Source: a virus
Reading direction: 5' to 3' (one strand)
DNA: 64,000 nt
IMG/VR virus record: IMGVR_UViG_3300018421_000010
Location: 1 to 64,000 of that record
How positions within the stretch are numbered: the first letter of the stretch is position 1; each line of letters begins with the position of its first letter. Made by a program: the position numbers and the translations under genes. This document shows, one piece after another, positions 1,589 to 37,740 of the stretch. The notes beneath the pieces were generated by a model. That model ran no database searches and was not told the origin of the DNA. It worked only from the letters and a program-made list of their open reading frames with translations.

Positions 1589-3499
1589 TTAGCGTCTTAT
1601 GCCTGCTAAACCTTTAATTCTGTCTAATTCTGCCTTTTCTGATGTTTGCTTCTCTGCAATTGACAGTTGTGCATTTGTAAATTGCTCGTATTTTGCATGT
1701 ACTGCTTCAATAAACTTTTGGGCCATAGGAACACATTTGTTACCATAGTCTTTTTCTACTGCTGTTAGTACTGCTGTTTCGCCTTTTGGAAACTGTCCTG
1801 TTTGTCTGTCGTAGTATGATAGAATAAACTCGCCTAATGGTGTCTTTTGTTCTTCTTCGCCGTCTAACGACAATGCACCATCTTTACCTACAGTAACGTC
1901 AGTTTCAGATGCTTCCATATCACCAAAATCTAGTTTGGCTAAAAGTTGTGGATCTTTTGCTTTTATATATTTGTTTACTAATGGACGCACACACATGTCT
2001 GAATCTTTTTGTCCAATTTGTTTTAGCATGTCGTGTAGTCTAGGATCATCAATTAGACCGTGTAAACTTTCAATTGCATTAGTACCGTCTACGCCTGCTG
2101 GGAAATGATCGCCAACTAGTGCTTGTAACTTTTTAATTGCCATTGCTTGCTCTTCTTCGTCTTGACTAAAGACAGCATCGCCTTCTGCAATTTCGTATTT
2201 TTTAGTTACACCATTTAGTGCAGATTCAATTTCTTCACCATACTTTTGGAAGCCACCCGGTGGCAAACCTCTAGTTGCACCGTCTGGTCCTGAACCCATA
2301 AAGTAAGGCATTTTAATTTCCATGCCTGGGCGTATTTGTGATGGATCTTTAATTTCTGGATTTTCGTCCATAATTGCTTGTAACGCTTCGTCTCTACCGT
2401 GACCTTGGAAGTTAGCATCTTTAAACTTCATATAGATACTGTAAAGAGTATCACCTTGTTGTACTGTATATGTTTCTGCTGGTAGACCAACTTCTACATC
2501 GTCAACAGGACTACCTTCGCTAAAGTCTTCTGGATTTAATTCTTGTGTTTCTAATACATTGTACAAGTATGGGAAAACATCTTGTAATTCTTCTTTAAAA
2601 CTTTTTACTGTAAGTGCTTCAACCCATTCTGATCTAACGTCTTCTGGAACTTCAGAAATTTCACGTGTCTTAAATGATTCAAATGCTTCGTTATAGTAAG
2701 ATTGTTTTTGTAGTTGATCTACAGATTTTTTAATTTGCTCAATACGCTCAACAACACGATCTGTTATGTTGCCCATTGCTTCTGACATTGTTTCAGAACG
2801 AGAAACATAATTTTTAAACTTTCTTAAATGACCTAGTTCCTTGCTCATTTCAACAATATGATTACCAAATGCATCGTATGGTGTACCACCGTTAGCGATA
2901 TGACGACCTAAAGCTCTTGCTCCGTTCAAGTGCTTAACAGGATATTTAAATCTTTCGCCTTGTGGACTTTCAATGAATATACTTTCAATATGCATTGATC
3001 TACCGCCAGGTAGTTCTGAGTTAACTGGCTTAGAATGCTTTACTAATAGTTTAGCACCATCTAAGTCTTGGTAGCTCGTACGAGGCGTACCATAAAGTTT
3101 TGATTCGGTCATGTTGTTATCTCCGGAGTTTTTCGCAAGGAATTGATAATCTCTTTTATCTAAGTTTGACTTTGTAATATCTCTAGTATCAAAGTTTAGC
3201 ATACGTTTTTTACTAAACATTCTAAGTTCTCTAAGAAAATTGTACCAATCTTTTTGTACTTCGTCATTTTCTTCACTTACAAATTCTGTGCTATAATAAA
3301 CTACAAGTCCGTCGTCTTCGCTTAGACTAACATTAACATGTCCAAGTGTTTCTGATCCTGACTTGTATTCAAAGTCAATAAAACGTGCTAACGCTGGATC
3401 GTTAGTCACTTTACCTGCATCGTCGCCCATAGTTACACTTGAGTAACGGCTACGTATTTTATTAAAAAGGTCTTCTGCTATATCGTTTAAGTTTATCAT
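1589..3499 (-). CDS. LysM-domain phage protein, probable virion component
   Basis: The product has 636 residues. A LysM module lies at about 342-400 (TYTVQQGDTLYSIY, then a proline/Ile-Arg-Pro-Gly stretch ending in PYF), a fold that binds peptidoglycan or chitin-like glycans. The N-terminal 330 residues are not recognised. The C-terminus ends in RIKGLAGIRR, closely resembling the RRLAGIK end of the scaffold protein at 58987-60084. The gene lies between the large terminase and gp32. A late-type motif is only 6 nt upstream of the ATG. The role is uncertain: it could be a virion-associated cell-wall-binding protein or an internal head component. Confidence 0.65.
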   Translation of the reverse strand: MINLNDIAEDLFNKIRSRYSSVTMGDDAGKVTNDPALARFIDFEYKSGSETLGHVNVSLSEDDGLVVYYSTEFVSEENDEVQKDWYNFLRELRMFSKKRMLNFDTRDITKSNLDKRDYQFLAKNSGDNNMTESKLYGTPRTSYQDLDGAKLLVKHSKPVNSELPGGRSMHIESIFIESPQGERFKYPVKHLNGARALGRHIANGGTPYDAFGNHIVEMSKELGHLRKFKNYVSRSETMSEAMGNITDRVVERIEQIKKSVDQLQKQSYYNEAFESFKTREISEVPEDVRSEWVEALTVKSFKEELQDVFPYLYNVLETQELNPEDFSEGSPVDDVEVGLPAETYTVQQGDTLYSIYMKFKDANFQGHGRDEALQAIMDENPEIKDPSQIRPGMEIKMPYFMGSGPDGATRGLPPGGFQKYGEEIESALNGVTKKYEIAEGDAVFSQDEEEQAMAIKKLQALVGDHFPAGVDGTNAIESLHGLIDDPRLHDMLKQIGQKDSDMCVRPLVNKYIKAKDPQLLAKLDFGDMEASETDVTVGKDGALSLDGEEEQKTPLGEFILSYYDRQTGQFPKGETAVLTAVEKDYGNKCVPMAQKFIEAVHAKYEQFTNAQLSIAEKQTSEKAELDRIKGLAGIRR

Positions 3500-3505
3500 A
3501 GTATA

Positions 3506-3514
3506 GTATTTATC
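3506..3514 (-). promoter_or_regulatory. Late-promoter-like motif before the LysM gene
   Basis: GATAAATAC on the minus strand resembles the T4 late promoter TATAAATA. It lies 6 nt from the ATG at 3499 and overlaps the terminase stop codon region. No ribosome-binding site lies between, so a leaderless transcript is implied. Confidence 0.5.
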
Positions 3515-5096
3515 AATAGTTGCTTATAAAGATAGGCATTGGTGCTTCGAAGTCATCATCAACTTCAATACCAACTGCTCCACCCCATTGTGCGTATACA
3601 CGCTGATCCCATTCTGCTAACACTTGCATCATTCTAATTGCAAGTAATGTTGCACTAACTAAGTCGTCATGCATTCCTGATTTTGCTTTAAAACTTGTTG
3701 CTTGTGCAATATATCCTTTAAGTTCTGATATTAAAGGTTTAGAATTTATATGAAGTTTGTTTTGTTCTATTAGAACTTTTAATCTACTACATGCACTAAT
3801 TTTTGTTTTGTATGTAGTATTAAATCCTTTGCGGAACTTGCGTACATGTCCTTTGCGGATAGGTTCACTTAATAACAATCCTGGAATATTCTCTTCACCT
3901 AAATCTTTAATTACTAATAGTGCTGCTTCACCAATTGAATTATTTTCAACACTCCAATATACATTTTCAGTTCCACAAGTATCTGCAATATATCTGTTGA
4001 TTTCTCTTACTACTTTTATTTGATCAGGTATAGCTGTTTGATTGTGCTGCCATTCAGCTACTTGTTTAAATGTAGGTAATTCAAACACTTGTATTGCAGC
4101 ATAGTCGCCGCCTGTACCCATTGCAGGATCTAATGCTACAATGTATATTCCGTCTTTGCGTATTTTTGTGTAAAAACGTGTTTGACCCATTTTCATTATA
4201 GGATCTATACCTTCCATATTAGCAAGTGTAATACTGTTAATAAGTGTTTCGTCAAATACTAAGAATTCACAACCGTATTCACGGCGGAACTTTTCTTCAC
4301 CAATACGTCCAATTTCTGCCTCCATCCATTCATCGTCTCGATCTGGATGTTCTTGCCATTCAGCTCTAAACGCATGAAACCCATTAACGCCTATGTCTGT
4401 TTCATTGCCGTGACTATCAAATTTTTGTTCTGCTTGTTTCCAAATAGTAGCAAATGTATCTTCGTCTGAGTTTGGTGTACTTGTAATAATAGCACGACCA
4501 CCTGTTGCTAGTGTAGGTGATATTGAAGTCCAAAACTCTTCTGCAATATTAGGTTGCACAAACGCAAACTCGTCACAGTATAGTAATGATATGGACATAC
4601 CACGTCCTGTGTTGCCTGTTGTTGTTTGACTTACAATACGGCTTCCGTTATCAAATTCTATGCTACCTTTGTTGTATGAAATAACACCTGCACGTATATG
4701 ATCAGGACAAGTTTCGTACACATAACGTATACGTTGCATAATTTCTTGAGCACCTGTGTATTTGTGTGCAGCAATAAGAATTGTTTGATCTGGATGAAAC
4801 ATTGCATACCAAGTAAGATATATAGCAGCACAAGTAGTTTTGCCTGTTTGGCGTGGCATCATGTTAATATTAAAACGATAACTGTGATATGAGTGCAGTA
4901 ACCTTAATTGATATTCGTAAGGATCAAACAGTAGTTTACCTTTTACAGGATGCTGTATGTATGCAAAGTGTTTTGCAAAATGTAAGTATCCTTCGTTAGG
5001 ATCCATACATTGAACCATGTCCTGTAATTGATCTTCGGTATATGTTTCTCTTTTATTGGCTTTTTTAGTTAATACGCCGTCTAACGATTTGCTCAT
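3513..5096 (-). CDS. 17: Terminase large subunit gp17-like, packaging ATPase/nuclease
   Basis: A 527-residue motor protein that pumps phage DNA into the prohead and cuts the concatemer. The ATPase half shows the Walker A-type PRQTGKTT at residues 81-88 and a Walker B LLYCDE at 171-176, followed by the coupling motif TSTPNS near 206. The nuclease half starts near 310 with an RNase H-like strand, VALDPAMGTGGDYAA (D323 is a metal ligand candidate). T4 gp17 is 610 residues; the marine T4-like versions I know are shorter, as here. It is separated from the upstream genes by a terminator and has a late motif 4 nt before the ATG. Confidence 0.95.
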   Translation of the reverse strand: MSKSLDGVLTKKANKRETYTEDQLQDMVQCMDPNEGYLHFAKHFAYIQHPVKGKLLFDPYEYQLRLLHSYHSYRFNINMMPRQTGKTTCAAIYLTWYAMFHPDQTILIAAHKYTGAQEIMQRIRYVYETCPDHIRAGVISYNKGSIEFDNGSRIVSQTTTGNTGRGMSISLLYCDEFAFVQPNIAEEFWTSISPTLATGGRAIITSTPNSDEDTFATIWKQAEQKFDSHGNETDIGVNGFHAFRAEWQEHPDRDDEWMEAEIGRIGEEKFRREYGCEFLVFDETLINSITLANMEGIDPIMKMGQTRFYTKIRKDGIYIVALDPAMGTGGDYAAIQVFELPTFKQVAEWQHNQTAIPDQIKVVREINRYIADTCGTENVYWSVENNSIGEAALLVIKDLGEENIPGLLLSEPIRKGHVRKFRKGFNTTYKTKISACSRLKVLIEQNKLHINSKPLISELKGYIAQATSFKAKSGMHDDLVSATLLAIRMMQVLAEWDQRVYAQWGGAVGIEVDDDFEAPMPIFISNY

Positions 5097-5162: not shown

Positions 5163-5798
5163 TTATTTGTCGTCGTCTTCGTCGTCTTCAGCATGATCGT
5201 CTTTGCCTGGTTTTTTGTCTGCCCAGTCTGGAACGCCATCGCCGTCAGCATCTGGCTTTTTCTTTTCATTGGTTAGTTTCTTAGCTTCTAGTGCAAGCTC
5301 AAGTGCTTGTCTAATGCTTTCAACTGCCATTGGGTTATCGCCATCTTGTGCTTTGGCAAACTGCTGTTTACGCTTGTGAATGTCATCGCCTGAAGCCATT
5401 TGATCATTCATGCTGTGATATTCTTCTTCTGGCTCGTTTTCATAATCTTCTTCAACTTCGTCGTCCATGCCGTCCATTGCAAGTAGCTGACGCTTCATCA
5501 TATCACGATCGCCACCGCATGGTCCTGCTGGTCCATGATCGCCACCGCATGCTTTACATGGCATTGGGCCTACTACTTCACCTTCGTCACCATCTGGTTC
5601 CATGTGAGGTAGTTCACTAGTTGAACCGTCGTTATGAACAACGCCGCCTAGTTGCATTACTCTTAATAGTTCACCTACTTCAGATGCTGTTTCTGCATTA
5701 GCACTGATATTTAGGCTTGCTTCTGTTATTACTGAAGTGCTTTTTACACTTCCTTCGATTTGATCCATTGCTGCGATCATGTCTTTCATTGTAGTCAT
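5163..5798 (-). CDS. Acidic conserved phage protein with Ca-binding-type loop
   Basis: 211 residues, not identified by function. The N-terminal part (ETASEVGELLRVMQLGG near 35-50) resembles a conserved protein I associate with marine T4-like phages downstream of the small terminase. The middle holds a Cys/Gly stretch, CKACGGDHGPAGPCGGD, which may bind a metal. The C-terminus has DADGDGVPDWADKKPGKDD, an EF-hand or type-3-repeat-like calcium loop, and ends in a run of Asp/Glu. It overlaps the stop of the next gene upstream by one base, and a terminator follows. A head-associated role is possible from context only. Confidence 0.65.
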   Translation of the reverse strand: MTTMKDMIAAMDQIEGSVKSTSVITEASLNISANAETASEVGELLRVMQLGGVVHNDGSTSELPHMEPDGDEGEVVGPMPCKACGGDHGPAGPCGGDRDMMKRQLLAMDGMDDEVEEDYENEPEEEYHSMNDQMASGDDIHKRKQQFAKAQDGDNPMAVESIRQALELALEAKKLTNEKKKPDADGDGVPDWADKKPGKDDHAEDDEDDDK

Positions 5799-6316
5799 TA
5801 TTTTGCCTCCGGTGCTTTTTGAACACTGTCAATTGGATCATGATCACGCTCTTTACGAGCAACTTCTAGTTCTTTCAATAGATCCATTACTCTGCTAGAT
5901 CCAACTGAGTCTTGAGCACTTTCTGCTGCCATTTCTTCAGTTCCGAGCATTGCTTCGTATTCGGTCTCTTCTTTAGTAGTTTGATAGTCTTCTTGTGGTT
6001 CATTTGGGTTACGAACAATTAAATGTGAAGTTGGAATTTTGCAAGTTTCTCTTAGGTAGTCTTGTAGTTGATGTGATGTAACAGGATATTCTAGTTCAAC
6101 ATCCCATGTGTGTACTTCACAATTTGTTAACTGTGGAAAATCTAATGGACGCTCAACAATTGGTGTTTTAGCAGCATTAGACATATTTACTACACTGTAT
6201 TTTTTAAGAGCAGACTCTAAACGATCTTCACATGCTTCTGGAAGTTCGCCTGCAACTCTTACCTTAAATGTATAAGTCTTTTTTGACTCTGTAAGAAAAT
6301 CTGTAAACTTTTTCAT
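5798..6316 (-). CDS. Putative internal head protein with capsid-targeting-like N-terminus
   Basis: 172 residues when started at the ATG at 6316; a TTG five codons upstream is possible but lies too close to the late promoter. The N-terminus, MKKFTDFLTES, closely resembles the T4 capsid targeting sequence (consensus like MKTYQEFIAE), which directs internal proteins into the prohead and is cut by the gp21 protease after (I/L)xE. Here LTE at residues 8-10 would be the cut site. The rest is a mixed alpha/beta domain with Cys residues and an acidic C-terminal half, and I do not recognise it. Function beyond head targeting is unknown. Confidence 0.7.
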   Translation of the reverse strand: MKKFTDFLTESKKTYTFKVRVAGELPEACEDRLESALKKYSVVNMSNAAKTPIVERPLDFPQLTNCEVHTWDVELEYPVTSHQLQDYLRETCKIPTSHLIVRNPNEPQEDYQTTKEETEYEAMLGTEEMAAESAQDSVGSSRVMDLLKELEVARKERDHDPIDSVQKAPEAK

Positions 6317-6340: not shown

Positions 6341-6350
6341 GTTATTTATC
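6341..6350 (-). promoter_or_regulatory. Late promoter motif for the head-targeted protein gene
   Basis: GATAAATAAC on the minus strand, 24 nt before the ATG at 6316. The spacing places transcription start near 6330, which excludes the upstream TTG codon and supports the ATG start. Confidence 0.5.
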
Positions 6351-6815
6351 AATATTACGTAGTTTCTCCATTAAACTATTACGGTCTGTTACGACTGTTC
6401 CTTGCCCAATTATTGAGTCTCCGTCGGAACTTTCGTCTTGATCTAATTTTTGTTTTTTGAGTTGTAATTCGATCATTTTTAATTTTTTATCTAATTTAGC
6501 AGTTTTTGCATCTAAACTAGTCTTTAGCATATTACCTGCAACTTCAAAAACTCTACCACTATAACGACTTTCAACGTTCATACCTAGATCCATTAAATCT
6601 TCATATGTTTGTAATGCACGTTGAGCAATGTCGTCAAGTTCTGAATCTGCTTTTTCGCCTAATCCTTTTACACTAGGCAATGCTGCTGCAATTTTATCAA
6701 ACTCAGCAATATCACGAAATGTTTCTTCTATATCCTCTTTTACTGCTGGAGGTGGCACAGAAGCATCTTCTTGATTTTCTGGTAAATTTAATAGTTCTTC
6801 TAGTTTTTTAGTCAT
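6342..6815 (-). CDS. 16: Terminase small subunit gp16-like
   Basis: 157 residues; T4 gp16 has 164. The protein is mostly helical: a central region (ALQTYEDLMDLGMNV, then RVFEVAGNMLKTSLDAK at about 102-118) followed by a lysine-rich coiled-coil segment, KLDKKLKMIELQLKKQK. This is the usual layout of the small terminase, which forms a ring, regulates the gp17 ATPase and helps recognise DNA. It is transcribed in the same direction as gp17 two genes away. The assignment is by size, helical pattern and context rather than a catalytic motif. Confidence 0.75.
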   Translation of the reverse strand: MTKKLEELLNLPENQEDASVPPPAVKEDIEETFRDIAEFDKIAAALPSVKGLGEKADSELDDIAQRALQTYEDLMDLGMNVESRYSGRVFEVAGNMLKTSLDAKTAKLDKKLKMIELQLKKQKLDQDESSDGDSIIGQGTVVTDRNSLMEKLRNIDK

Positions 6816-6840: not shown

Positions 6841-6849
6841 TTATTTATC
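6841..6849 (-). promoter_or_regulatory. Late promoter motif for gp16
   Basis: GATAAATAA on the minus strand, about 25 nt upstream of the gp16 ATG and overlapping the end of gp4. Confidence 0.5.
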
Positions 6850-7282
6850 GTCTTTTGCCGTTGTGGAAAATATCTTGTTCGGTAATAACACGAAAATATA
6901 TGTTATGTTGTTTACACCAAGCTCTTGCTGCTTCCCACTTGGCTTGGTTTACGACCCAGTGTGCTTGGTTTGCTTTTGATCTTCCAAGTTTTCTTCTGTC
7001 TGTGTGATTTTCAGGTTTTACTTCTACAAGTTCAACACGTTGTTTTCCGTTCCTATCACTGTATGCAATAAAAAAATCTGGAACATATATTGTATATTTT
7101 CCAGTTAGTGGATGTCTATACGGAATTTTAATCGATTCACTTGCCCATTGTTTTACATTTGGGTTTTCATCGCAAAAACGCATCATTGCCCATTCCCAAC
7201 TTGATCTATAAGTAGGAGTTCTACCTCCTGCATATTTCTCTGGGTTCTTCAGTGTGTATTTTCCTTGGGCGAACCTAGACAT
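6845..7282 (-). CDS. 4: Head completion protein gp4-like (PD-(D/E)xK fold)
   Basis: 145 residues, near the 150 of T4 gp4 (also called gp50/65). It has a PD-(D/E)xK nuclease-like core: YVPDFFIAYSD with D69, and VELVEVKPE with E87 and K89. Flanking conserved features are YRSSWEWAMMRFCDEN near the N-terminus and YFRVITEQDIF near the C-terminus. The family acts late in head assembly, completing filled heads before tail joining, and a DNA-end trimming activity is plausible from the fold. A clear CGGAGA ribosome-binding site precedes the ATG. It sits in the cluster with gp16 and gp17. Confidence 0.9.
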   Translation of the reverse strand: MSRFAQGKYTLKNPEKYAGGRTPTYRSSWEWAMMRFCDENPNVKQWASESIKIPYRHPLTGKYTIYVPDFFIAYSDRNGKQRVELVEVKPENHTDRRKLGRSKANQAHWVVNQAKWEAARAWCKQHNIYFRVITEQDIFHNGKRR

Positions 7283-25134: not shown

Positions 25135-25596
25135 ATGCTACTACCTAGTGTTAGTCTATCGTACGATGAATTTGTATCTTTAATTAGAAGCGAGCATGCT
25201 TTTAATGAAGACATGGTTAGTTATATTGATCGAAAAGGCTTGCAACACTATTTAAAATTTGACGATTATATTTCATATCTAGGTAAAATAGATAACTTAT
25301 TGTTAGACAAGGATATAACAATTAAAGTAGAAAAATATGAAACTATGTGTAACTTTAATAAAGGCACTGTTCATATATTTTATGCTAAAGAAGGAAGTCC
25401 TAGTTTTGACGAGCATTGTGATCCTGTAGACTTAATGTTGCAAGTAACACATGGTGTAAAAACAATAGAAATGAATCAAAGAGATTATACGTTGCATAAG
25501 GGAGAACGTTTATACATTCCTGCAAGTACATTACATCGTGCAACAAACAAATATGAAAGCATTATGCTATCTTGGGGTATAAATGACTGTACATAA
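25135..25596 (+). CDS. Cupin-fold protein
   Basis: 153 residues from the ATG at 25135. Two cupin-type motifs are visible: DEHCDPVDLMLQVTHGVKT, and KGERLYIPASTLHRATN, where the H and N are typical of motif 2. Such proteins bind a metal or small ligand; some are dioxygenases or JmjC-like, others are non-catalytic. It starts one base after the oxygenase-like stop codon and its end overlaps the next gene by 14 nt. No close family is recognised. Confidence 0.7.
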   Translation: MLLPSVSLSYDEFVSLIRSEHAFNEDMVSYIDRKGLQHYLKFDDYISYLGKIDNLLLDKDITIKVEKYETMCNFNKGTVHIFYAKEGSPSFDEHCDPVDLMLQVTHGVKTIEMNQRDYTLHKGERLYIPASTLHRATNKYESIMLSWGINDCT

Positions 25597-26608
25597 TGCT
25601 ACACAATATATGTCCTATATTAAAACAACCGAGACTTGTAATTTAAACTGTTCTCATTGTTTTACTAACGGTACAAGTGGACGTAAGATTTATTTTAACC
25701 CTGTTGCTACAGCAGACTTTTTTAATAGGCTGTATGCCAAAATGCCCAACAGTGGAATAGCGTTTGAGTTTCACGGTGGTGAGCCTATGCTTGCACCTGT
25801 AGAAGATATGAAACTGTTTCACAAACTGACTTACGATGTTTGGGGTGACAGAGCATACTATGGCATGACTACTAACCTAACTTATAAACTAACAGACGAT
25901 AAACTTGATTTAATATACGGAATATTGCACAAGCGTTTGGGTACAAGTTACGATCCGTTTATACGTTGGGCAAATGAAAAACAACAAAAATTATGGGAAG
26001 ATAATGTACGTCAACTAACAGCAGACGGTGTTGAAATCAAATGCTTTGTAAGTCTAAGCAAGGACATGATACAAGAAAACCCAGCAGATGTTATTGAATA
26101 TCTTATTAGTTTAGGAATACAAGAAGTTGACTTTGAACGTTTAACTTCAGACGGTAATGCAGTACGCAATCCTAAAATATTTCCTACAAATATAGAAATA
26201 CAAGATTGGTATATGCTGCTTCATAAAGAAACACAAGCAAGAGGTTTGCGTGATAAAATATACAATCAAACACTTGAAAGTGTGTATATGAAGTTTGAAG
26301 AAGGCATTACTCGTGCAAGTACATTTTGTAGAGACTGTGAGCAAAAACTGTTTACTGTAAATGCAGATGGAACTATTGCAGGATGTCCTAACTCAGCACC
26401 TACAGCACACTATGCACACATAAGTGATGACATTGACACTGTGTTATATCATCCAGAACGTATGTGTAACATTGCTAATGAATTAAATAGAAATCCCAAG
26501 TGCTATGAATGCCCTGTGCAGTTTTATTGTGGTGGCGACTGTTATAAACTTGCGTGGGAAGGCAATGTATGTCCTGCACCTAAAAAACTTATGTTGGAGT
26601 TGGCATAA
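25583..26608 (+). CDS. Radical-SAM/SPASM protein, plus-strand copy 1
   Basis: 341 residues. The cluster-binding CxxxCxxC is CNLNCSHC at C19, C23 and C26, followed by the GGE-like HGGEP (about 63-67). The C-terminus has a SPASM-type region with CRDC, GCPNS, NPKCYECPVQFYCGGDC and CP. SPASM radical-SAM proteins commonly make thioether or C-C links in ribosomal peptides or activate enzymes. The start at 25583 overlaps the cupin by 14 nt; an in-frame ATG at 25610 is possible. Target unknown. Confidence 0.9.
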   Translation: MTVHNATQYMSYIKTTETCNLNCSHCFTNGTSGRKIYFNPVATADFFNRLYAKMPNSGIAFEFHGGEPMLAPVEDMKLFHKLTYDVWGDRAYYGMTTNLTYKLTDDKLDLIYGILHKRLGTSYDPFIRWANEKQQKLWEDNVRQLTADGVEIKCFVSLSKDMIQENPADVIEYLISLGIQEVDFERLTSDGNAVRNPKIFPTNIEIQDWYMLLHKETQARGLRDKIYNQTLESVYMKFEEGITRASTFCRDCEQKLFTVNADGTIAGCPNSAPTAHYAHISDDIDTVLYHPERMCNIANELNRNPKCYECPVQFYCGGDCYKLAWEGNVCPAPKKLMLELA

Positions 26609-27642
26609 TGGATTTAATTATTAAACCAACAGAAGCGTGTAACTTTAAATGTACATTCTGCTCGTCAACTAAGATTGACCCTAACAATGCAGGACTACTT
26701 GATCACGATTACATTTTTAGATTTTTAAAACGCTATCCTGATACAAACACTATTATTGTAAATGGTGGCGATCCACTAATGGTCGAGCCAGACTATTACT
26801 GGAAGATTATCAAGTTTTTAGATGAACATAATATGCCTGCAACTATTAGTTTTACTAGTAACTTGTGGCCATTCTATGTTAAGCCGGACAAGTGGGTTGA
26901 ACTGTTTAATCATCCACGCATGGGTATTGCTACTAGCTTCCAATACGGTAGTGGCAGACTTAAAGGCGATATGAGTGTGTTCACTGAAGAAGATTTTTGG
27001 AAAGTATCAGACAAGATGTTAGAGCTTGTAGGATACCGTCCTGAGTTTATTGCTGTTATTGATGATATGAATGATTGGAGTATTATTAAAACAGTTGAAC
27101 TTGCTAAACAAATGGACGTAGTATGCAAAGTAAACTATGCTATGGCCAGTGGCGAACAAGGTTACACTTATCGCCTAAGCAAAATATATAAAGCGTATTT
27201 AGACATACACGAAGCAGGTCTTACTCCTTGGGAATATAACACACAACAAATGATACGCAGACTGCAAACTGACACAACTACGTGTCCGCAGAACAGACAC
27301 TGTGACGAAGGTATTAGAGCATTTAATCCAGGTGGTGACTATTACAGTTGTGGCAGCTTAGGTGATGACAAAGATTATCCTATTGACTTTGAATATGAAA
27401 TGTCAGGCGGATTTAGCACACCATTGCAAGATGCACCTGAACTTATATCAATGAAGCAGGCTTGTTTGACTTGTCCTATGTTCCGTATATGTAACGGCTG
27501 TCGTAAAACCGTGCGAGATCATAAACGTGAAGGTGTTGTAGAAGATCATTGTTTTCAAATGAAACAACTTGCACCTAAGATACTAGAACTTAATGGTCAA
27601 GATCCTAACGAAGTTACACCTTATGTGAGAGAATATGACTGA
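26608..27642 (+). CDS. Radical-SAM/SPASM protein, plus-strand copy 2
   Basis: 344 residues. CNFKCTFC with C11, C15 and C18 lies at the extreme N-terminus; the GGE-like segment is VNGGDPLM near 50. The C-terminus carries ACLTCPMFRICNGC and a final DHC, a SPASM-like auxiliary cluster region. It overlaps copy 1 by one base and copy 3 by 8 nt. Sequence is clearly different from copies 1 and 3, so they are not a recent tandem duplication. No known maturase family is assigned. Confidence 0.9.
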   Translation: MDLIIKPTEACNFKCTFCSSTKIDPNNAGLLDHDYIFRFLKRYPDTNTIIVNGGDPLMVEPDYYWKIIKFLDEHNMPATISFTSNLWPFYVKPDKWVELFNHPRMGIATSFQYGSGRLKGDMSVFTEEDFWKVSDKMLELVGYRPEFIAVIDDMNDWSIIKTVELAKQMDVVCKVNYAMASGEQGYTYRLSKIYKAYLDIHEAGLTPWEYNTQQMIRRLQTDTTTCPQNRHCDEGIRAFNPGGDYYSCGSLGDDKDYPIDFEYEMSGGFSTPLQDAPELISMKQACLTCPMFRICNGCRKTVRDHKREGVVEDHCFQMKQLAPKILELNGQDPNEVTPYVREYD

Positions 27643-28552
27643 GTTTACTGTTAGCATAAACCCTACATACTTTTGTAACTTTCGTTGCGACTTTTGTTAT
27701 CTTACACCAGAGCAACTAGCAAACAAACATCGTATTAGCCCACAAGAACTTGATCAAAGATTAAGCGAAATAACTGTGCCTATTACACACGTTGACTTAT
27801 ATGGCGGTGAAATAGGATTACTTGACAAAGATTACTTTTACAGCATTAAAAGTGTAATAAAAAAACACTTTGCTGGTACTATAAATATTAATACTAACTT
27901 TAGTGCAAGACCGGATTTCTTTTTAGACGACGATGTGCATGTTAGTGTGAGCTATGATTTTGAAGCACGTGAGCTAAGTGACACTGTGTTAAGAAACATA
28001 TTATTGTTTCCTAAAGATGTAAGTGTACTTGTTTTAGCAAGCCCAAAAGTATTAGCAACAGACGTAGACTTTATGATTAACACATTTAATATGGTTCAGA
28101 ATATTAAGTGTGTTGAGATAAAACCTTACAGCACTAACCAAGCAAATGCACACCCTGTTACACACAAAGACTTTGAAGAACACGTTAAAAAATGGATAGA
28201 GTCACCAATACAAAAGCAATTTGATTTTGTAAATGTTGACGAGTTAGAAGATGTATTAGATGGAAAACGTAATGCATTTTCAAACGATCATGTTTATATT
28301 ACTCCAGATGCTAAGTTTGGTGTGCTAGAGTTTGATGACAATGATAATGAATATTTTGAAAAATATAATAAATTTGAAGATTATCTATTTTGGGCCGATC
28401 AAGAGCCAACAAAAAATTTAAGTCCTATATGTCATAGTTGCGAATACTATGGAAAATGTTTAACAGAACATTATAGATTTGTACATGACTTAGATAATGG
28501 ATGCAATGGTTACAAAGGATTAATAGACTGGTATGCTAGACTGGAAGATTAG
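27635..28552 (+). CDS. Radical-SAM protein, plus-strand copy 3
   Basis: 305 residues. The cluster site is CNFRCDFC (C14, C18, C21) followed by YGGEIG near 55, a GGE motif. The end has CHSCEYYGKCLTE and a late Cys, compatible with a twitch or partial SPASM domain. The ATG lies 8 nt inside copy 2, so translation is coupled. It is shorter than its neighbours. Function is inferred only from the radical-SAM fold. Confidence 0.88.
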   Translation: MTEFTVSINPTYFCNFRCDFCYLTPEQLANKHRISPQELDQRLSEITVPITHVDLYGGEIGLLDKDYFYSIKSVIKKHFAGTININTNFSARPDFFLDDDVHVSVSYDFEARELSDTVLRNILLFPKDVSVLVLASPKVLATDVDFMINTFNMVQNIKCVEIKPYSTNQANAHPVTHKDFEEHVKKWIESPIQKQFDFVNVDELEDVLDGKRNAFSNDHVYITPDAKFGVLEFDDNDNEYFEKYNKFEDYLFWADQEPTKNLSPICHSCEYYGKCLTEHYRFVHDLDNGCNGYKGLIDWYARLED

Positions 28553-28952
28553 ACAACAACTTTTTAATTCTACTGCGGAAGAATTTACAGACGACTTAAA
28601 TTTAGTTAATATTCGCACAGAAGAAGATAGTGTTACTTGGGCAGTAAAACACTTTAACGAACGTGTAGACGAATGGGTATATCCTGCTAAAAGTTATTTT
28701 GTAGCAATATGTTATGCTTATTGGATTAGTTTAGATTTTCGTTACGACTTTATTGAACTGCTAGACGACAAAGACTTGTTAGCAGGCAACGATCCATACT
28801 TTAAAACTTATAGTGAAGATAAAGCAACTTACAATGCTATACTTGATCAGGTTGAACTACCTGATCCTTCATCTCAGATGGGAATGGTGCCCGACGTTCG
28901 ATCGTATTATGAGGAAGAGATGATGTTTGACGAGTATCCCCTACATAGTTAA
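28533..28952 (+). CDS. Hypothetical protein ending the plus-strand operon
   Basis: 139 residues, acidic, with a Trp/Tyr-rich middle (SYFVAICYAYWISLDFRYD). It begins 20 nt before the stop of the previous radical-SAM gene and its last 116 bases overlap the convergent radical-SAM gene on the other strand. No catalytic motif and no membrane segment are convincing. It could be a partner of the enzymes; the overlapped tail is less certain than the body. Confidence 0.55.
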   Translation: MLDWKIRQQLFNSTAEEFTDDLNLVNIRTEEDSVTWAVKHFNERVDEWVYPAKSYFVAICYAYWISLDFRYDFIELLDDKDLLAGNDPYFKTYSEDKATYNAILDQVELPDPSSQMGMVPDVRSYYEEEMMFDEYPLHS

Positions 28953-30048
28953 AAAATTCACGTATAGGACATACGCCCGGCGGTAAGTCTCTTGCACGGT
29001 TCTTCCAGTCCCATTGTGTATAACAACGAAAACCACAACGATCAAAATAAGGACAACTTAAACAACCTACTTCATCCATGTATGCTTGCATAAGGTTGGT
29101 GTTGTCTTTTCTAATATATGCATGATTAAAGTCATTGCGTGTATAACGATGCCAACGACAGTTTGCAGTTGTGTTGTCAGGGAATATTGTGAGCTTGTTT
29201 AAACTCATACAGTGCATTTGATTTTTATCTTGTGTTAATAATTCTCTATAAGGAAATACCATAGGATAGTTATCTGCAATATATTTCATAAACTTCAAAT
29301 ACAAACTATCACTTGGTACTAGATGATCGTAACCTGGATCAGGAATAAAATCATCAAAGAACAAATCAAAATTTTTGTACAAGTAATCAAAATACTCATC
29401 GCCAGCAAACAGTGCGTTAATACTGTCTGTTGTTGCTACTAGGTTAATAGTAGACACATAGTCTTTGAAACGTTCGATATTTTTAGTGTATTGTCCGCCT
29501 GTAGGACGACCGCTTAGATCATAACTAGCAATCAGTTTACTTGGGATGTCTACTGCATTTAATTTGTCTAACAGTGTACGTACATCTTCGTGATATTTGA
29601 ATAAAAAGTTGCTGACCCAAACTACTTGTATTACATGTCCGTACTTGTCACAGATTTTTTTAATCTCAAGCATTAGATCATAATACATAGGATACAGTGT
29701 TTCTCTTGCACGGTCTTGAAACAGCTCTCCGCCTACCATATTAAACTGCATAGCATGTACTTTGCCTTGCATCTTTTTACAGTGTGCTTCTACTAGAGGA
29801 AGTTTAGCAAGCATTTCAGGATATGTCATGCCCACTGTACTGTCTTTGTCATGAAAGCAAAAGTCGCACACAATAGGACAGTTTTCAAATAGAGTGATTT
29901 CTATTTCGCCAATAAGAGGACGCTTACGCTCTAGTATCATATGCGTAACTGCATTTGCTGCTTGTTGTTCCGGAGTGTCTAATAAATGATCGTCGGTAAC
30001 ATTTTCAGGCATTAATGCTTTTAATATTTCTGTGCCACAACCGCCCAT
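28837..30048 (-). CDS. Radical-SAM/SPASM protein, minus-strand member 6
   Basis: 403 residues. An N-terminal extension of about 50 residues (starting MGGCGTEI) precedes CPIVCDFC (C57, C61, C64). The middle carries MVGGELF, a GGE motif. The C-terminus has a SPASM-type set: CMSLNKL, NCRWH, CLSCPYFDRCGFRCYTQ and CP. It differs from the five preceding genes, which form one family. It is the last gene of the minus operon, has a TATAAATA promoter motif 40 nt upstream, and overlaps the plus-strand 139-residue gene. Target unknown. Confidence 0.9.
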   Translation of the reverse strand: MGGCGTEILKALMPENVTDDHLLDTPEQQAANAVTHMILERKRPLIGEIEITLFENCPIVCDFCFHDKDSTVGMTYPEMLAKLPLVEAHCKKMQGKVHAMQFNMVGGELFQDRARETLYPMYYDLMLEIKKICDKYGHVIQVVWVSNFLFKYHEDVRTLLDKLNAVDIPSKLIASYDLSGRPTGGQYTKNIERFKDYVSTINLVATTDSINALFAGDEYFDYLYKNFDLFFDDFIPDPGYDHLVPSDSLYLKFMKYIADNYPMVFPYRELLTQDKNQMHCMSLNKLTIFPDNTTANCRWHRYTRNDFNHAYIRKDNTNLMQAYMDEVGCLSCPYFDRCGFRCYTQWDWKNRARDLPPGVCPIREFFNYVGDTRQTSSLPHNTIERRAPFPSEMKDQVVQPDQV

Positions 30049-31172
30049 TATCTATAACCTATATTATTGTAAAGTGCCATTACGTTTTTATTTATAAGGC
30101 ACTCGTTTTGTTGTATTACATCTGACATGAGTGTTTGTATTAGCCTTGAGTTACAATTTTCAACATACTCACAGTTGTTGCACACAAGGTTAGGTATATT
30201 TTTATACTGTTGTATTTGCAAGTTGTGCTTTTTATTCATTATACTTGTTAGCACACTGCCTTCTATTGGTATCTCAAAGCTCTCATGATATATTGGAGAG
30301 TTTTCATATAAGAAAGGAACAACATATAACTTGTCGTTATTAACAGTAACAATAACTTCGTTAAAGTTTTTATGACTATTATCACTTTGTTGCCAAATAA
30401 AGTTTTCTTTAAAACGTTTTTCGTCTTTGTCTACAACACTTTGTATACTGTTATTCCAGCCTTGTATTATGCCTAACATTTTGTCAGGCTTGTTTACCAT
30501 TGCACGTACTAGACTAGGTCCCCATTCTACAACAGTACCCCATTTTTTACGCACACTTTCTATTTTATCCAATACATCATCGTCAACTTTTTGTGTAATA
30601 TTACAAAGCAGACTTACTTCATACTCAACACTACTTGCTTCCATCATTGCAAGGCGTTTTTCAATAAGACTGTGTACGTTTGAGTTATCCAACATATGCA
30701 AGTCAACTGCTATTTGTACATCAAAAGGACGCTCACAAAGATAACTGTTTTCAACATGTTTAATTACTTGTTCAACACGTTCGTCTCCGATGAAAAAATC
30801 AACTGAACAGTTGTGTTGCAAGCCTCCTTCTTCAGGTAAAGCATCAACTATTTTACGAAAACGAGGATCTTCTAATACAGGTATAATATTGCCGCTTGAA
30901 AAGAAATCGGTAGGTCCTACAATAATATCATCAAGCACATATTGTTCGGTTAGTTCATCAACTAATTGTGCTGCTAGGTCAAGTCCTAACCCTGTTCCGT
31001 AGTTTTTTCTGCGTTTAACAAAACAACCTGAACAGTTATATGCACACCCTTCAAGTATTTCAAGCATGAGTTGTATTTTTATTTTGTTTTGATCAGCAGG
31101 ATTTACAAAACCTTCATCATGATAATCTGTTTTATTTTTGTTTAAGTAGTCTTGCCAATCTTTACGTAGCAT
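30048..31172 (-). CDS. Radical-SAM protein, five-member family member 5
   Basis: 374 residues from the ATG at 31172, chosen because GGAGAG lies seven bases upstream; an earlier in-frame start would overlap the previous gene further. The site is GCAYNCSGCFV (C43, C47, C50). Family markers follow: VGPTDFF near 95, PFLYENSPIYHESFE near 255-275, and CNNCEYVENC with a last Cys, an auxiliary cluster-type end. Shares GPTD and CNxC-x5-C with members 1-4. Its stop codon overlaps the next ATG by one base. Confidence 0.9.
   Translation of the reverse strand: MLRKDWQDYLNKNKTDYHDEGFVNPADQNKIKIQLMLEILEGCAYNCSGCFVKRRKNYGTGLGLDLAAQLVDELTEQYVLDDIIVGPTDFFSSGNIIPVLEDPRFRKIVDALPEEGGLQHNCSVDFFIGDERVEQVIKHVENSYLCERPFDVQIAVDLHMLDNSNVHSLIEKRLAMMEASSVEYEVSLLCNITQKVDDDVLDKIESVRKKWGTVVEWGPSLVRAMVNKPDKMLGIIQGWNNSIQSVVDKDEKRFKENFIWQQSDNSHKNFNEVIVTVNNDKLYVVPFLYENSPIYHESFEIPIEGSVLTSIMNKKHNLQIQQYKNIPNLVCNNCEYVENCNSRLIQTLMSDVIQQNECLINKNVMALYNNIGYR
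30089..30096 (-). promoter_or_regulatory. T4-consensus late promoter inside member 5, before member 6
   Basis: TATAAATA on the minus strand is an exact match to the T4 late promoter. It lies about 40 nt upstream of the ATG at 30048, within the 3' end of the preceding gene, and would give the last gene extra transcription. Confidence 0.55.
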
Positions 31173-32241
31173 TATAGCTCTCCAATACACGTAAAGGATA
31201 TACACAGTCTTTAAATTTATAGTGTTCCATATACTTTAGTACATGTTTACTCATACATATTTCTCTACGACTACAATTTTCACAACTTGTAGTTTCTGAT
31301 AGGTAATCTAGCTGTTCTAAATATAATGTTGTTTTTAAATCAGTCCAACTTTTAATGTCTGTAGGATTTTGCACACGAAACTCATCAGTTTTTATTAGTG
31401 CTGCTTCATAAACAAACGGAGTTGAATAAAACTCTCCTTGACTGAATGTATAGTTAAGTTCAAACGGACCACCTTGGTCTTTGTCTGCAATAGTCATTGC
31501 AAGATATTCTTTATTTGTATCGTTAAAAGTATTTTCAATAGTCTTAACCCAGTCATTAATTAAACGTTCGTGTATTACACCTTTGCTGTAACGTTGATAG
31601 CTAGGTAGTGTTTCCAATATACTTTCGTATTCATCACGCACTATGCGACTTATTTCTGCTAGATTTTCAATATTGCTATCTATATTAAATGTAATGTAAT
31701 AATCTACAGGATCAGTAAACTTGTTTAGTACTTCATGTATACGTGCAATGTTATTTTTTCTATATGTAGGATCTAAAACTTGTTTAGGATCTATTACAAC
31801 TTGGAAACCATATAGAAAATCATCACGCTTTGGTATACTGTTGAACTTCTCTATAACTTGGTCAATGTATTTGTCGTCTGCTTGCAGTGTACTTGGCATT
31901 TCAATAGTAGTACAACGACTTACTAGCGTTCTAAAGTTTTCGTAATCTAGTAAATCTAATATATTCAAGTTACCAAACACATCTGTAGGACCAATGTTTA
32001 CACTTGTAAAGCGTATATTGTTAGACATAAACAGTTCTTGTGCATCAAGTACCTTTTGAATGTCTTCGTTTGTAACTTGTTGACGTCTACGATTAACAAA
32101 GCACCCTGCACAGTTATGTATACAACCATCAAGAACGTCTAGAGTCATGTTTACTTTTATTTCGTGAGCATTTGCCACACCAATATTGTAATCTTCGTGT
32201 CCTCTAGTTGTTTCCCAATAGTTATTTTTTACGATTGGCAT
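31162..32241 (-). CDS. Radical-SAM protein, five-member family member 4
   Basis: 359 residues. GCIHNCAGCFVNRRR holds C40, C44 and C47. The family markers are IGPTDVFGNLN, PFVYEAALIKTDEFRV and CENCSRREIC plus a last CVYP. The start MPIVKNNYWE is nearly the same as that of member 3 (MPVIKNNLYYE), pointing to tandem duplication. Ends overlap both neighbours by 11 and 20 nt. Likely a SAM-dependent radical enzyme on a peptide or protein target. Confidence 0.9.
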   Translation of the reverse strand: MPIVKNNYWETTRGHEDYNIGVANAHEIKVNMTLDVLDGCIHNCAGCFVNRRRQQVTNEDIQKVLDAQELFMSNNIRFTSVNIGPTDVFGNLNILDLLDYENFRTLVSRCTTIEMPSTLQADDKYIDQVIEKFNSIPKRDDFLYGFQVVIDPKQVLDPTYRKNNIARIHEVLNKFTDPVDYYITFNIDSNIENLAEISRIVRDEYESILETLPSYQRYSKGVIHERLINDWVKTIENTFNDTNKEYLAMTIADKDQGGPFELNYTFSQGEFYSTPFVYEAALIKTDEFRVQNPTDIKSWTDLKTTLYLEQLDYLSETTSCENCSRREICMSKHVLKYMEHYKFKDCVYPLRVLESYNAT

Positions 32242-33403
32242 GGTATACTTTCTTTATTTCTTCTAGTCGTTCATCGCCGTCTTCAGTTACTAAGAACTTT
32301 TTGCGATAACCTTGCTTGTCTGCTTCAACTGAATAGTCTGTCCAGTCATACATTTCTGCTGCACTTTTATTATAGTTATAAATGTTCTTCATCATATTTT
32401 CTTTAGGTGCAATACAAGTGTCTACACCTAAGTAATCACGTAGTAATATTACTTTTCTGTTATAACAACTAAAGAACAAGTCGCAATTTTCACACTCTGT
32501 ACCTTTTGCACGTTCCATTTGTGTTAGTGTCTTGTAATATGCTTCGTCTAAGTCCTTAACTTCAAACTGTTCATCATACAATGCCATGTTTTCATACATA
32601 AATGGACTCAAATACCACTTGCCCTTCTTAAAGTTAAGTACTGTGTAGTTGTGTCCAGCATGAGAATGGTCAACCATGATGTTGTTTAGATGAGTGTCTT
32701 CAGGTAGTGCTTCAAAAAATGCATTAAACTGGTTAAGTGTACGCAATATTATGTTAGGTTTATGGCTACGACTAACACTTGGTATAAAGTCAATGGTAGT
32801 ATCAAACTCTTTAACTACAAAATCATGTATTTGTTCATAGTCTAAGTCATATTGTCTAATGTTTACAATGAATGTGTATGTACATTCGTGTTTTAGGTTA
32901 GCATCAATGTACGCAATACAACGTTTGAGCTGTTGTATGTACAATATGTCCTTGTAACGCATTGGATCTGTTGCAATACCTACCTCTATTTCAGTATCAG
33001 TGTTAACATTGGCGTGTAAGAAGTTAATCCAACGCTCTAAGTAGCTCATGTCTTGCTCTAAAAAGGTTGTAGTGAACGCAAGTATAGGAGAGTTTTCATT
33101 TATCATAGACAACAAGTCGGGATCTTGCATTACTTGGTAAAAGTTTTCGCTAGACAGGCAGTCTGTTGGGCCTATTAGTACTTCATCTACTAAAATTCCC
33201 TTGTCAGTTATGCGTTTTACAAACTCACGGCACTGTTTTAAGTGATTTTCTTCAGGAGCATTGCCTCTACGGTGTACAAAACAGCCCGGACAAGCGTGTA
33301 TACACCCGTCTAACACATCTAATTGTATTTTTACGGCACTAACTGGTTTAGTTTGTGTTTCTGTTGTTAGCTCGTAGTACAAGTTGTTCTTAATGACTGG
33401 CAT
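32222..33403 (-). CDS. Radical-SAM protein, five-member family member 3
   Basis: 393 residues. GCIHACPGCFVHRRG holds C34, C38 and C41, followed by IGPTDCLSSEN, PFMYENMALYDEQFEVKD and CENCDLFFSC with a last CIAP. The C-terminal 40 residues (SVEADKQGYRKKFLVTEDGDE) are an extension lacking in member 4. It overlaps member 4 by 20 nt and member 2 by 14 nt. Confidence 0.9.
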   Translation of the reverse strand: MPVIKNNLYYELTTETQTKPVSAVKIQLDVLDGCIHACPGCFVHRRGNAPEENHLKQCREFVKRITDKGILVDEVLIGPTDCLSSENFYQVMQDPDLLSMINENSPILAFTTTFLEQDMSYLERWINFLHANVNTDTEIEVGIATDPMRYKDILYIQQLKRCIAYIDANLKHECTYTFIVNIRQYDLDYEQIHDFVVKEFDTTIDFIPSVSRSHKPNIILRTLNQFNAFFEALPEDTHLNNIMVDHSHAGHNYTVLNFKKGKWYLSPFMYENMALYDEQFEVKDLDEAYYKTLTQMERAKGTECENCDLFFSCYNRKVILLRDYLGVDTCIAPKENMMKNIYNYNKSAAEMYDWTDYSVEADKQGYRKKFLVTEDGDERLEEIKKVYHANRKK

Positions 33404-34418
33404 TTAGGTACTCCTTGGGCAATACACACTCTGTTAAACCTCTATCTTGCATGTAAAACAGTACATTACGCTCTGCACAGCTCATTAAATGAGGACAACT
33501 TGCACATTCTTGAGTATTTTCAGCATATGCAAGGTTGCGAGACAAGAAATCATCACTGTTTATGTTTTGTACTTCAAAGTTTGGTGTACGTTGCAGTATA
33601 GCATCGTACAAAAACGGATTCATATACAGTTTACCATTGTAAAAACTGTAGTTAGAGCATCCATAGCCATTAAACTGTGCATCAAACATAGTATACAGGC
33701 TTTTGTACTTGGGGTCAATCTTTTGTTTGCTTAGTTCTTGTATAAACATTGGCAAATATTTACTTACTTTGCCTCTGCTGTTACGATCGTTAAGGAAACT
33801 TGGTAGTATAACTACAGGAGCATTGAAATCTTTCATGGTCATATCACATAAATGATTGTAATCAACACTATCAAATATGCCTGGATAGTAGTTTACTCTA
33901 AACTGCACACTGCCTTGTTTAAACAGTTCAAGTTTGCGACACATATCTTCAACATCGCCCTGCAAGTAACGTTCAATGTCGAGCACTATCTTAAAGTCTA
34001 TGTCAGGTGTGCGATCTAGTCCTTCGTAAAGGCTCCAAATCTTAGTGTGTTTAGCAAGTATTGTGTTGTAGTCCTGTAGTAGCGTTGAGTTAAAACTTAA
34101 TGCTGCAATGTTGTACAAGCGTTTCATACTAGGATGCTCCATCAACTCCCAAAAGTTTTCAGCATCAAATATATCAGTAGGTCCTATTACAACATCGTCA
34201 GGTGTATATGCACTAGATTCTAGTATATCACAAAGAGTTGTTAAGTGATCAGCACTGGTTAAGTTTTTGCGTGGAATAAAACAGCCAGGACACTGTTGAC
34301 TACAGCCGTGTAGTATGTCAGCATGAACTTCAACCCTAAGAAAGTTGTTATCCTTAGGGCTTACACCTTCAACGTAGTTATTAAATCCTGATGGAGTTGC
34401 GTTTAAGTTAACGAGCAT
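33390..34418 (-). CDS. Radical-SAM protein, five-member family member 2
   Basis: 342 residues. GCSQQCPGCFIPRKN holds C39, C43 and C46, followed by IGPTDIFDAEN, PFLYDAILQRTPNFEVQN and CASCPHLMSC with a last CVLP. Same domain order as members 3-5. It overlaps members 1 and 3 by 11 and 14 nt. The spread in sequence among the five members suggests different targets or reactions rather than gene-dosage copies. Confidence 0.9.
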   Translation of the reverse strand: MLVNLNATPSGFNNYVEGVSPKDNNFLRVEVHADILHGCSQQCPGCFIPRKNLTSADHLTTLCDILESSAYTPDDVVIGPTDIFDAENFWELMEHPSMKRLYNIAALSFNSTLLQDYNTILAKHTKIWSLYEGLDRTPDIDFKIVLDIERYLQGDVEDMCRKLELFKQGSVQFRVNYYPGIFDSVDYNHLCDMTMKDFNAPVVILPSFLNDRNSRGKVSKYLPMFIQELSKQKIDPKYKSLYTMFDAQFNGYGCSNYSFYNGKLYMNPFLYDAILQRTPNFEVQNINSDDFLSRNLAYAENTQECASCPHLMSCAERNVLFYMQDRGLTECVLPKEYLNASH

Positions 34419-35589
34419 TGACGATTTTCAAGGCATCGTCATTCCATTGCTCTGTGCTGTCAATAAACGGATTGTACATTTCAAGTACTTCTAGCGGCAT
34501 CAGGCACTCATGCATATTCATAGCGTCTTGTGCTTGGAATATCAGTCTGTTTGCACATGCTACAGCATACTTACAATCAGCACAATCCTTAACAGTGGAA
34601 GACTTTGCCAAGCCTTTTGCTATTAGTTGATCCCTCTTTGCCAATATTTCTTCAAAACTTAAACCTGTTACTTCTAATTCTTTATGTTGTGTAAAGAACG
34701 CTTGTTCGTGTAGCATAACATTTAGGAATACACGAGGTGCATCAAAGCCAGGAATAATAGTTAGCCCTATGAAGTTCATTGAGTTACAGTACAAGTTAGC
34801 CATACTCATTGTAACATCAGCATAGTTATCTTGATCTACTACTTCTTTTAAGAAGTTGTTCCATGCTACTAGATTCTTACGCTGGTGTAATACACTTGGT
34901 GCTCTAGAGAACGCAGGGTTCATTTCTAGAATAGTTTCGTAATCTTCAAGAATCTTGTATAGCAGTTTGTTGTAGTTTTCTTTAGTTAGATGTTTTTGCA
35001 TTACATTACTTGCTTGTAATGTCCAACTCCAGTCAATGTTTTTAGGAGTTTCATTTGCAAAGAACTCTAGTTTTGCTTTTATGTCTTTGAAATATTCTTC
35101 ATCATTAAGTATACGGTCAATATCACCTACTGGCATAATAAACTCAATGATCATTTCATCTCTGTATTTTGCAGGATCGTCAAGTATTGAAAATACTTCA
35201 CGTAGTCTTTCCATGCTTACATCGTCTATTTTGCTAGGTGTAGCAATACGTGCTTTTGTATGTTCACGCATGATATCCTGTATAATAGGATTGTTAAGAA
35301 TATTGTCTGTATTATTTGCTGAGAAAAGATCAGTTGGACCAATAACAAACTCACGTAAATTAAGTCCTGTGCGTGTTACGCCGTCTGCAAGTTCTTTTGC
35401 AGTAGTTAACATTGCATCCATTGTAGCAACGTCTTGATTTTTGTTAACAAAACAACCTAAACAACCATGGTTACAACCAGTGAGTCCTTCAAAGTTAATT
35501 AGTACGTCAAACTTTTGTGCATGACTAGGAGGTAGACTCTCAGGTCCACTGTATCTCATCTGCTTGCAGTATGATTGTTGCATTGTCAT
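34408..35589 (-). CDS. Radical-SAM protein, five-member family member 1
   Basis: 393 residues. GCNHGCLGCFVNKNQ holds C39, C43 and C46; then IGPTDLFSANN, and CADCKYAVAC with a last CLMP. The PF(L/M)YE segment of its relatives is altered (NVMLHEQAFF). The ATG sits in an ATGA overlap with the 236-residue gene. It is the first enzyme gene after the candidate precursors and two unknown genes. Confidence 0.9.
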   Translation of the reverse strand: MTMQQSYCKQMRYSGPESLPPSHAQKFDVLINFEGLTGCNHGCLGCFVNKNQDVATMDAMLTTAKELADGVTRTGLNLREFVIGPTDLFSANNTDNILNNPIIQDIMREHTKARIATPSKIDDVSMERLREVFSILDDPAKYRDEMIIEFIMPVGDIDRILNDEEYFKDIKAKLEFFANETPKNIDWSWTLQASNVMQKHLTKENYNKLLYKILEDYETILEMNPAFSRAPSVLHQRKNLVAWNNFLKEVVDQDNYADVTMSMANLYCNSMNFIGLTIIPGFDAPRVFLNVMLHEQAFFTQHKELEVTGLSFEEILAKRDQLIAKGLAKSSTVKDCADCKYAVACANRLIFQAQDAMNMHECLMPLEVLEMYNPFIDSTEQWNDDALKIVNAR

Positions 35590-37357: not shown

Positions 37358-37740
37358 TATCTTCTTCCCCTTGAGCCGTGACAGCTATAATGGCAACTAC
37401 TATGACAGATTCTCCAATCAAAATATGTGTTAGTTAGTCTGCCTTCTATTTGGTTAACTGTGCGTGAAATACAGTTAGTTGCAAAATTTTGTACCTCACT
37501 TGCATATACTTTTAGATTATCTCCAATGTTATTTGGAAGATCTGCTGTACTATATGTTCCTTGTCCTGCGTTTACATACTCATAACGTCTGTTACCGTAA
37601 GCAGTTCCAGAACCCCAACCACTTACGTTTGCATAATAGCACGTAGCATTGAAGTTAATAGTCTTGTCAAAAGATCTAAGACGTAGATACGCATTGTTAT
37701 AGTATCTTGTTTCTAAAGAAGCGTGTGACTCGCCTGCCAT
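37357..37740 (-). CDS. CHxS-tail protein 2, candidate modified peptide precursor
   Basis: 127 residues. It shares with its neighbour FDKT(I/V)N, GTAYGNRRYEYVNA (about residues 47-60), YFD(W/F) and the final RICHSSCHYSCHGSRGRR (110-127). Cys lie at 112, 116 and 120, each followed by His-Xaa-Ser, so the tail is three tandem CHxS tetrads and a basic end. Upstream Cys occur near 33 and 89. The layout (long variable front, short conserved Cys-rich tail, radical-SAM genes next door) suits a ribosomal peptide with a C-terminal core. Alternatives are a metal-binding virion tip or small structural protein. Start and stop overlap neighbours as TAATG. Confidence 0.7.
   Translation of the reverse strand: MAGESHASLETRYYNNAYLRLRSFDKTINFNATCYYANVSGWGSGTAYGNRRYEYVNAGQGTYSTADLPNNIGDNLKVYASEVQNFATNCISRTVNQIEGRLTNTYFDWRICHSSCHYSCHGSRGRR

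Follow-up and report, generated by a model that had tools for sequence, protein, structure and literature searches.

Gene X of this virus, labelled only as a virion structural protein by its family, probably encodes a minor protein in the head of a T4-superfamily phage, one that is docked in the prohead by its N-terminal leader, cut after Glu10 by a gp21-type protease and conserved for a structural or packaging-related role rather than as a host effector, a reading to which we give a probability of about two in three. The amphipathic MKKFTDFLTE segment would dock X into the scaffold core during prohead building, as the T4 capsid targeting sequence (CTS) does; the phage's own gp21-type protease would cut after Glu10, and the 162-residue mature protein, with a predicted ferredoxin-like domain followed by a C-terminal helix that is conserved, would stay in the head. 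Docking, cleavage in this phage and the conserved role of the mature protein are what we infer, and the name of the family, together with a mass-spectrometry note on one homologue, suggests that X is present in the virion. The reading proposes a concrete entry route and a maturation step for this family of jumbo-phage head proteins.

The window comprises the opening 64 kb of a virus record (G000) that is 117,792 bp long, and the features discussed here are collected in Table 1. X starts at an ATG with GGGA about 9 nt upstream and has the N-terminus MKKFTDFLTESKKTYTF; the ten leader codons are followed by SKK, placing an aliphatic-x-Glu triplet before Ser11, and the X stop codon shares 1 nt with the ATG of the following gene, Y (TAATG). 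A longer X start chosen by the ORF caller (TTG, adding 15 nt) was rejected, as an ATG stands at the corresponding place in 26 of 26 relatives read. Starts of X homologues are annotated elsewhere in two named phages: four codons upstream in the Phosso record, and, in that of Atu_ph07 (L024 6001-6087), so far downstream (29 codons after an in-frame ATG) that the leader of gp113 is omitted. The upstream in-frame ATG of gp113 would yield the leader MKTLQDYLTES.

Table 1. Coordinates of the features discussed, numbered from the first letter of the window; a slash within a sequence marks a cut site here and in the text.
Feature	Coordinates	Strand	Basis or remark
LysM-domain protein	1589-3499	-	just after the large terminase gene; related to a virion structural PHROG
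gp17-like large terminase	3513-5096	-	PHROG search
Y, 211 aa	5163-5798	-	predicted site VITE26/ASLNIS
X, 172-aa putative head protein with CTS-like leader	5798-6316	-	PHROG 14802
X leader, codons 1-10	6287-6316	-	cut predicted between Glu10 and Ser11, whose codon is 6284-6286
gp16-like small terminase candidate	6342-6815	-	PHROG 16202 (unknown function); weak PHROG 445 match, E 0.00069
gp4-like head closure protein	6845-7282	-	PHROG 218
gp23-like major capsid protein	57810-58979	-	predicted site YLSE43/SATAG, from alignment to T4 gp23
Scaffold candidate, gp22-like by position	58987-60084	-	PHROG 10922 (unknown function); putative role from gene order
gp21-type prohead protease	60099-60725	-	Pfam Peptidase_S77; 35% identity to T4 gp21
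Acidic 268-aa protein where T4 has the core proteins gp67/gp68	60740-61546	-	putative role from gene order and composition; no PHROG or Pfam match
gp20-like portal protein	62464-64000	-	continues to 64209, past the window

The first-pass annotation had likened MKKFTDFLTES to the T4 CTS and had seen in it an LTE site for gp21, and both points stand. The LTE triplet of X is followed by Ser, and the same phage encodes a gp21-type protease (Peptidase_S77, E 4.4e-27; 56 of 158 positions identical to T4 gp21) as well as a Gp23-family capsid protein and a portal. When the capsid protein is aligned to T4 gp23, YLSE/SATAG falls opposite the T4 sequence FLTE/AEIG, predicting a site after Glu43. Capsid sites obtained by alignment in named jumbo phages are LME/S, LME/T, LRE/S, LVE/N, LRE/S and LME/N, and that of PBECO4, read by eye, is LTE/S. 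T4 is described as removing 65 residues from gp23 and 10 from gp24 (PMC9958956); in the sequences these points read FLTE/A and LLRE/S respectively, and the FLTE/S site of X combines the two.

The 10-20-residue propeptides of gp24 and of the internal proteins (IPs) are termed capsid targeting sequences in one account (PMC5694885), and a conserved CTS is described in another as restricted to IPII and IPIII (PMC9958956). X resembles IPII and IPIII (MKTYQEFIAE/A) in having a 10-residue N-terminal leader of one form with Glu followed by a small residue, although no similarity was found between the body of X and those of IPII and IPIII. The vertex protein gp24 (MAKINELLRE/S) is described with the same arrangement, a ten-residue propeptide with Glu/Ser at the cut, but it is a 427-residue capsid-lattice protein similar in structure to gp23, whereas X has 172 residues and a weakly predicted ferredoxin-like core. 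A further ORF of the record (67355-68554) was considered as gp24-like for its FLSE/A sequence and was not used: PHROG and Pfam gave no match for it, and the one in NCBIfam was below threshold.

The leader was compared with chance by a census of plausible starts, defined as those within 25 residues of the longest frame in non-overlapping ORFs, using the pattern M..[FYLIVM]..[FYLI][FYLIVM].E[ASG] and an expectation taken from internal positions of the same ORFs. In the whole 117,792-bp record one of 151 starts fits this T4-type propeptide pattern, with 0.042 expected, and it is X. The T4 control gave three of 603 starts (0.168 expected), namely IPII, IPIII and gp24, all of them head proteins cut by gp21, and the pattern is therefore specific. 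A narrower form modelled on IPII and IPIII finds only these two among the 603 T4 starts and only X among the 151 here; a much broader pattern was useless, with 29 matches against 17.5 expected in T4 and 5 against 3.5 in this record. The census does not amount to a formal p-value because the pattern was composed after X and the T4 CTS proteins had been seen.

The first-pass annotation had also proposed a search for the same start in other genes of the phage, and none besides X carries it in this record. The near relative G001 likewise has X as its one match (1/257 starts, no other gene), and PA5oct has none among 881. Three of 1131 starts fit in Vibrio phage 2.275.O (0.405 expected): X, an ORF that directly precedes the capsid gene, and a reading of 39 residues, the last taken as spurious. 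The surroundings of X were covered in 97 overlapping loci, 761 kb in all with 1838 ATG starts; besides X itself a single start fits the pattern there, present in two of the loci, where 0.79 would be expected. T4 gene 61.1 (L040 18966-19130) starts with MKTFKEFIKEDM, which is CTS-like but has Asp after the Glu. That the leader of X is a chance match is very hard to credit: the motif is short and the pattern was chosen after the fact, but the leader is kept, despite silent codon change, throughout the 55 distinct proteins described below.

Relatives of X were collected by two scans of viral_contigs, the first giving 19 loci and the second, which used an internal pattern independent of the leader, contributing the best 80 of 577 by similarity. 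From the 19 loci, L002, L003, L007, L008, L011, L012, L017 and L018 were dropped as encoding identical proteins and L019 for spanning only 21 residues. The resulting 88 loci represent 84 contigs (L006 and L045, L009 and L046, L010 and L047, and L013 and L048 are duplicates) and yield 55 distinct proteins, a number unaffected by the duplicates, one of them identical to X.

Across these 55 proteins Leu8 and Glu10 are invariant, Phe4 is present in 54, and position 7 is Ile, Phe, Tyr or Leu. The residue after Glu10 is Ser in 49, Ala in three, Gly in two and Thr in one, never Asn or Asp; three of the proteins carry one extra residue before the motif. The underlying DNA has drifted silently, Leu8 being written in four codons and Glu10 in both in the 52 proteins for which codons were compared. 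Invariant Leu8 and Glu10 with a small next residue are as expected of a targeting leader with an aliphatic-x-Glu site before a small residue. As a block, the leader is of average conservation, residues 2-11 ranking 80th among 162 ten-residue windows, and residues 49-64 are nearly invariant (mean entropy 0.20 bits) and among the best-conserved stretches of the protein. A further [LIVMF]xE[ASGT] site occurs in the body of 42 of the 55 proteins, at any one place in at most 26. Protein queries of viral_contigs from Vibrio 2.275.O and PA5oct returned no relatives, and that from Atu_ph07 returned one contig, which encodes an identical protein.

Conservation of the site is looser among the named phages that represent deep lineages of the family. 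Glu at position 10 followed by a small residue is kept in two of seven, Atu_ph07 and Vibrio 2.275.O (both LTES). PBECO4 (LTEK) and GAP32 (LTEL) retain Glu with Lys or Leu after it, and position 10 is not Glu in BF (LIDL, hence D/L), PA5oct (YDAS) or Phosso (LSSV). The hydrophobic spacing of the leader persists across these lineages, and the capsid proteins of those that have no site in X still keep their own Glu site. Retention in two of seven is, on these sequences, the main evidence against a universal cut of X; X may be docked more widely than it is cleaved, or the deep-lineage phages may leave X untrimmed.

These deep relatives also bear on another explanation, in which the N-terminus is an uncut, fixed structural helix of a virion protein, LTES is the end of that helix and the similarity to T4 propeptides arose by convergence. 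Five of the seven have no Glu10 or no small residue after it while keeping the hydrophobic spacing, and the predicted model of X, weak as it is, has a helix at residues 4-10 and its first strand at 15. We regard this explanation as unlikely nonetheless: among the 55 distinct proteins, drawn in part from the best 80 of 577 relatives, Glu10 is invariant and always followed by Ser, Ala, Gly or Thr, and X (52/52) and the next gene slot (37/49) are enriched for such sites when neighbouring slots are compared.

The model itself was predicted with AlphaFold2 from A2, an input of 46 sequences, fewer than the 55 distinct proteins, and has a mean pLDDT of 63.2 and a pTM of 0.42. Beyond the N-terminal helix come a beta-alpha-beta-beta-alpha-beta core and, at residues 139-156, a C-terminal helix. 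Foldseek comparison with the PDB returned generic ferredoxin-like folds (best E 1.9e-3, none at or below 0.001), and functions borrowed from them (HPPK, ribosomal S6, ACT, PII) were set aside as reflecting that generic fold only. In a viral structure library six matches reached E up to 0.001, all to unnamed or uncharacterised proteins; the 'Ip7' protein of phage MX01, at rank 21 (E 6.8e-3, TM 0.30), was too weak to use. No function follows from the predicted fold.

Family membership is clearer from profiles. X matches PHROG 14802, 'virion structural protein', a family that takes in PA5oct gp282 and proteins of 121Q, PBECO4, BF and GAP32, with E 3.2e-8 (residues 1-148 on positions 1-154 of 179). 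All 14 of 14 members of A1 match it too, the named phages among them probably by construction of the profile. In a tblastn search with X, 39 phage records had an E of 1 or lower, and for 24 of these it was 1e-3 or lower; matches of the GAP32 and BF types are weak when taken by themselves (E 0.04-0.6), and their homology is argued from the PHROG, alignment and gene order. No Pfam or NCBIfam entry matches X at an E of 0.1 or below, and the sole solved chain found by profile at E up to 1, eIF3H (E 0.039), was taken as chance. PA5oct gp282 is annotated as a structural protein, with ESI-MS/MS noted in its record; because PA5oct has no Glu10, the sole homologue with a mass-spectrometry note lacks the cut site. 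In the MIJ3 paper the four virion proteins named from the main bands of a gel are tail, fibre and capsid proteins, with no X homologue among them, and titles and abstract openings in the literature searched gave nothing on the leader of the family, which is no proof of its absence from print.

A second profile, PHROG 2667 'internal head protein', matches the N-terminus weakly in seven of eight X proteins (E 0.0011-0.26). In the four that match best, the first 43 residues suffice for a match in every case (E 1.1e-4 to 4.3e-3), and deleting residues 1-11 abolishes it in every case. T4 IPIII (E 0.0058) and IPII (E 0.009) match the same profile through their first 16-19 residues.

This match, together with the IPII and IPIII form of the leader, is what favours a role for X like that of the internal protein IPI of T4, injected to act on the host or to protect DNA; the first-pass annotation had leaned the same way in suggesting that X might act on the host. 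That suggestion fares poorly, and we consider an injected X improbable. The family has been conserved among phages with unrelated hosts (Pseudomonas, enterobacteria, rhizobia and Vibrio); in all but the Vibrio phages its genes are found close to tail, head-closure or terminase genes. In contrast, the T4 internal proteins are described as highly diverse (PMC3012670) and dispensable for assembly (PMC9958956), whereas X belongs to a conserved family with a recurring neighbourhood and has the nearly invariant stretch at residues 49-64. Because gp24, a shell protein, has a ten-residue propeptide of the same kind, the leader of X implies entry into the prohead and trimming, not injection; a CTS-like leader need not signal host-acting cargo.

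The neighbourhood raises a further possibility, compatible with the favoured reading since it concerns the role of the mature protein, namely that X enters the prohead through its leader as an accessory of the packaging motor or portal vertex. X lies between the gp16-like and gp17-like genes and overlaps Y by 1 nt, and the order in PA5oct (tube, tube, structural, head closure, hypothetical, X, structural, terminase) is much as in the window. However, terminase annotation is absent from the 12-kb stretch around X in PBECO4, Vibrio 2.275.O, BF and GAP32. The order in PBECO4, BF and GAP32 runs from tube genes through head closure and a hypothetical gene to X, a gene named Hsp70 and virion structural proteins, and the neighbours in Vibrio 2.275.O are mostly unnamed. 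Ribonucleotide reductase genes stand between the head closure or completion gene and X in Phosso and Atu_ph07, with the terminase a few genes later. Gene order alone does not give a function, and a packaging accessory is, to our minds, a rather unlikely proposal for the mature role.

The N-terminus of Y, MTTMKDMIAAMDQIEGSVKSTSVITE/ASLNIS, contains a longer N-terminal site predicted for the same type of protease. The later position resembles that in T4 IPI, which presumably is cut at STITE/ATLTS. In relatives the same slot (+1) is occupied by several unrelated proteins, many with sites of the LTE/A, LNE/A or INE/A type. When [LIV]xE[ASG] sites within the first 45 residues were counted around X, whose frame was found for 52 of the 55 proteins, X had one in 52/52 and slot +1 in 37/49, or seven of 14 sequence clusters; related sequences are not independent. 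The other slots, assigned automatically and including some unrelated genes, gave 0/48 at -3, 2/49 at -2, 14/49 at -1 (one of four clusters), 3/39 at +2 and 0/27 at +3. If any of [ASTGVM] is allowed after Glu, residues 1-45 contain a site in 60 of 67 proteins of the Y slot, compared with 106 of 802 windows taken from other parts of those proteins; the Y of the window is probably counted twice here, as it looks the same as that of L044.

With its site and its variable slot, Y is a better candidate than X for exchangeable cargo, and the host-acting idea, weak for X, is less weak for this variable slot. One may imagine, tentatively and as a rather unlikely reading, that the terminase-flanked stretch is a cargo bay in T4-like phages known mainly from environmental contigs, with X as the constant, prohead-docked member and the Y slot holding exchangeable packaged proteins with protease sites, possibly ejected into the host; it would then be a counterpart, in a different place, of the T4 internal-protein genes. 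The slot is a place to seek packaged proteins in such phages.

Elsewhere in the window, a run of nine ORFs (25583-35589) carries CxxxCxxC motifs by eye and is radical-SAM-like; Pfam Radical_SAM matched two of the five ORFs tested from it, one of them above the cut-off. Near this run, two tandem minus-strand genes (37357-37740 and 37740-38114) encode related small proteins ending in RICH(S or T)SCHYSCHGSRGRR, one of which has a weak match to Phage_30_8, below the cut-off; these small proteins are possibly modified peptides.
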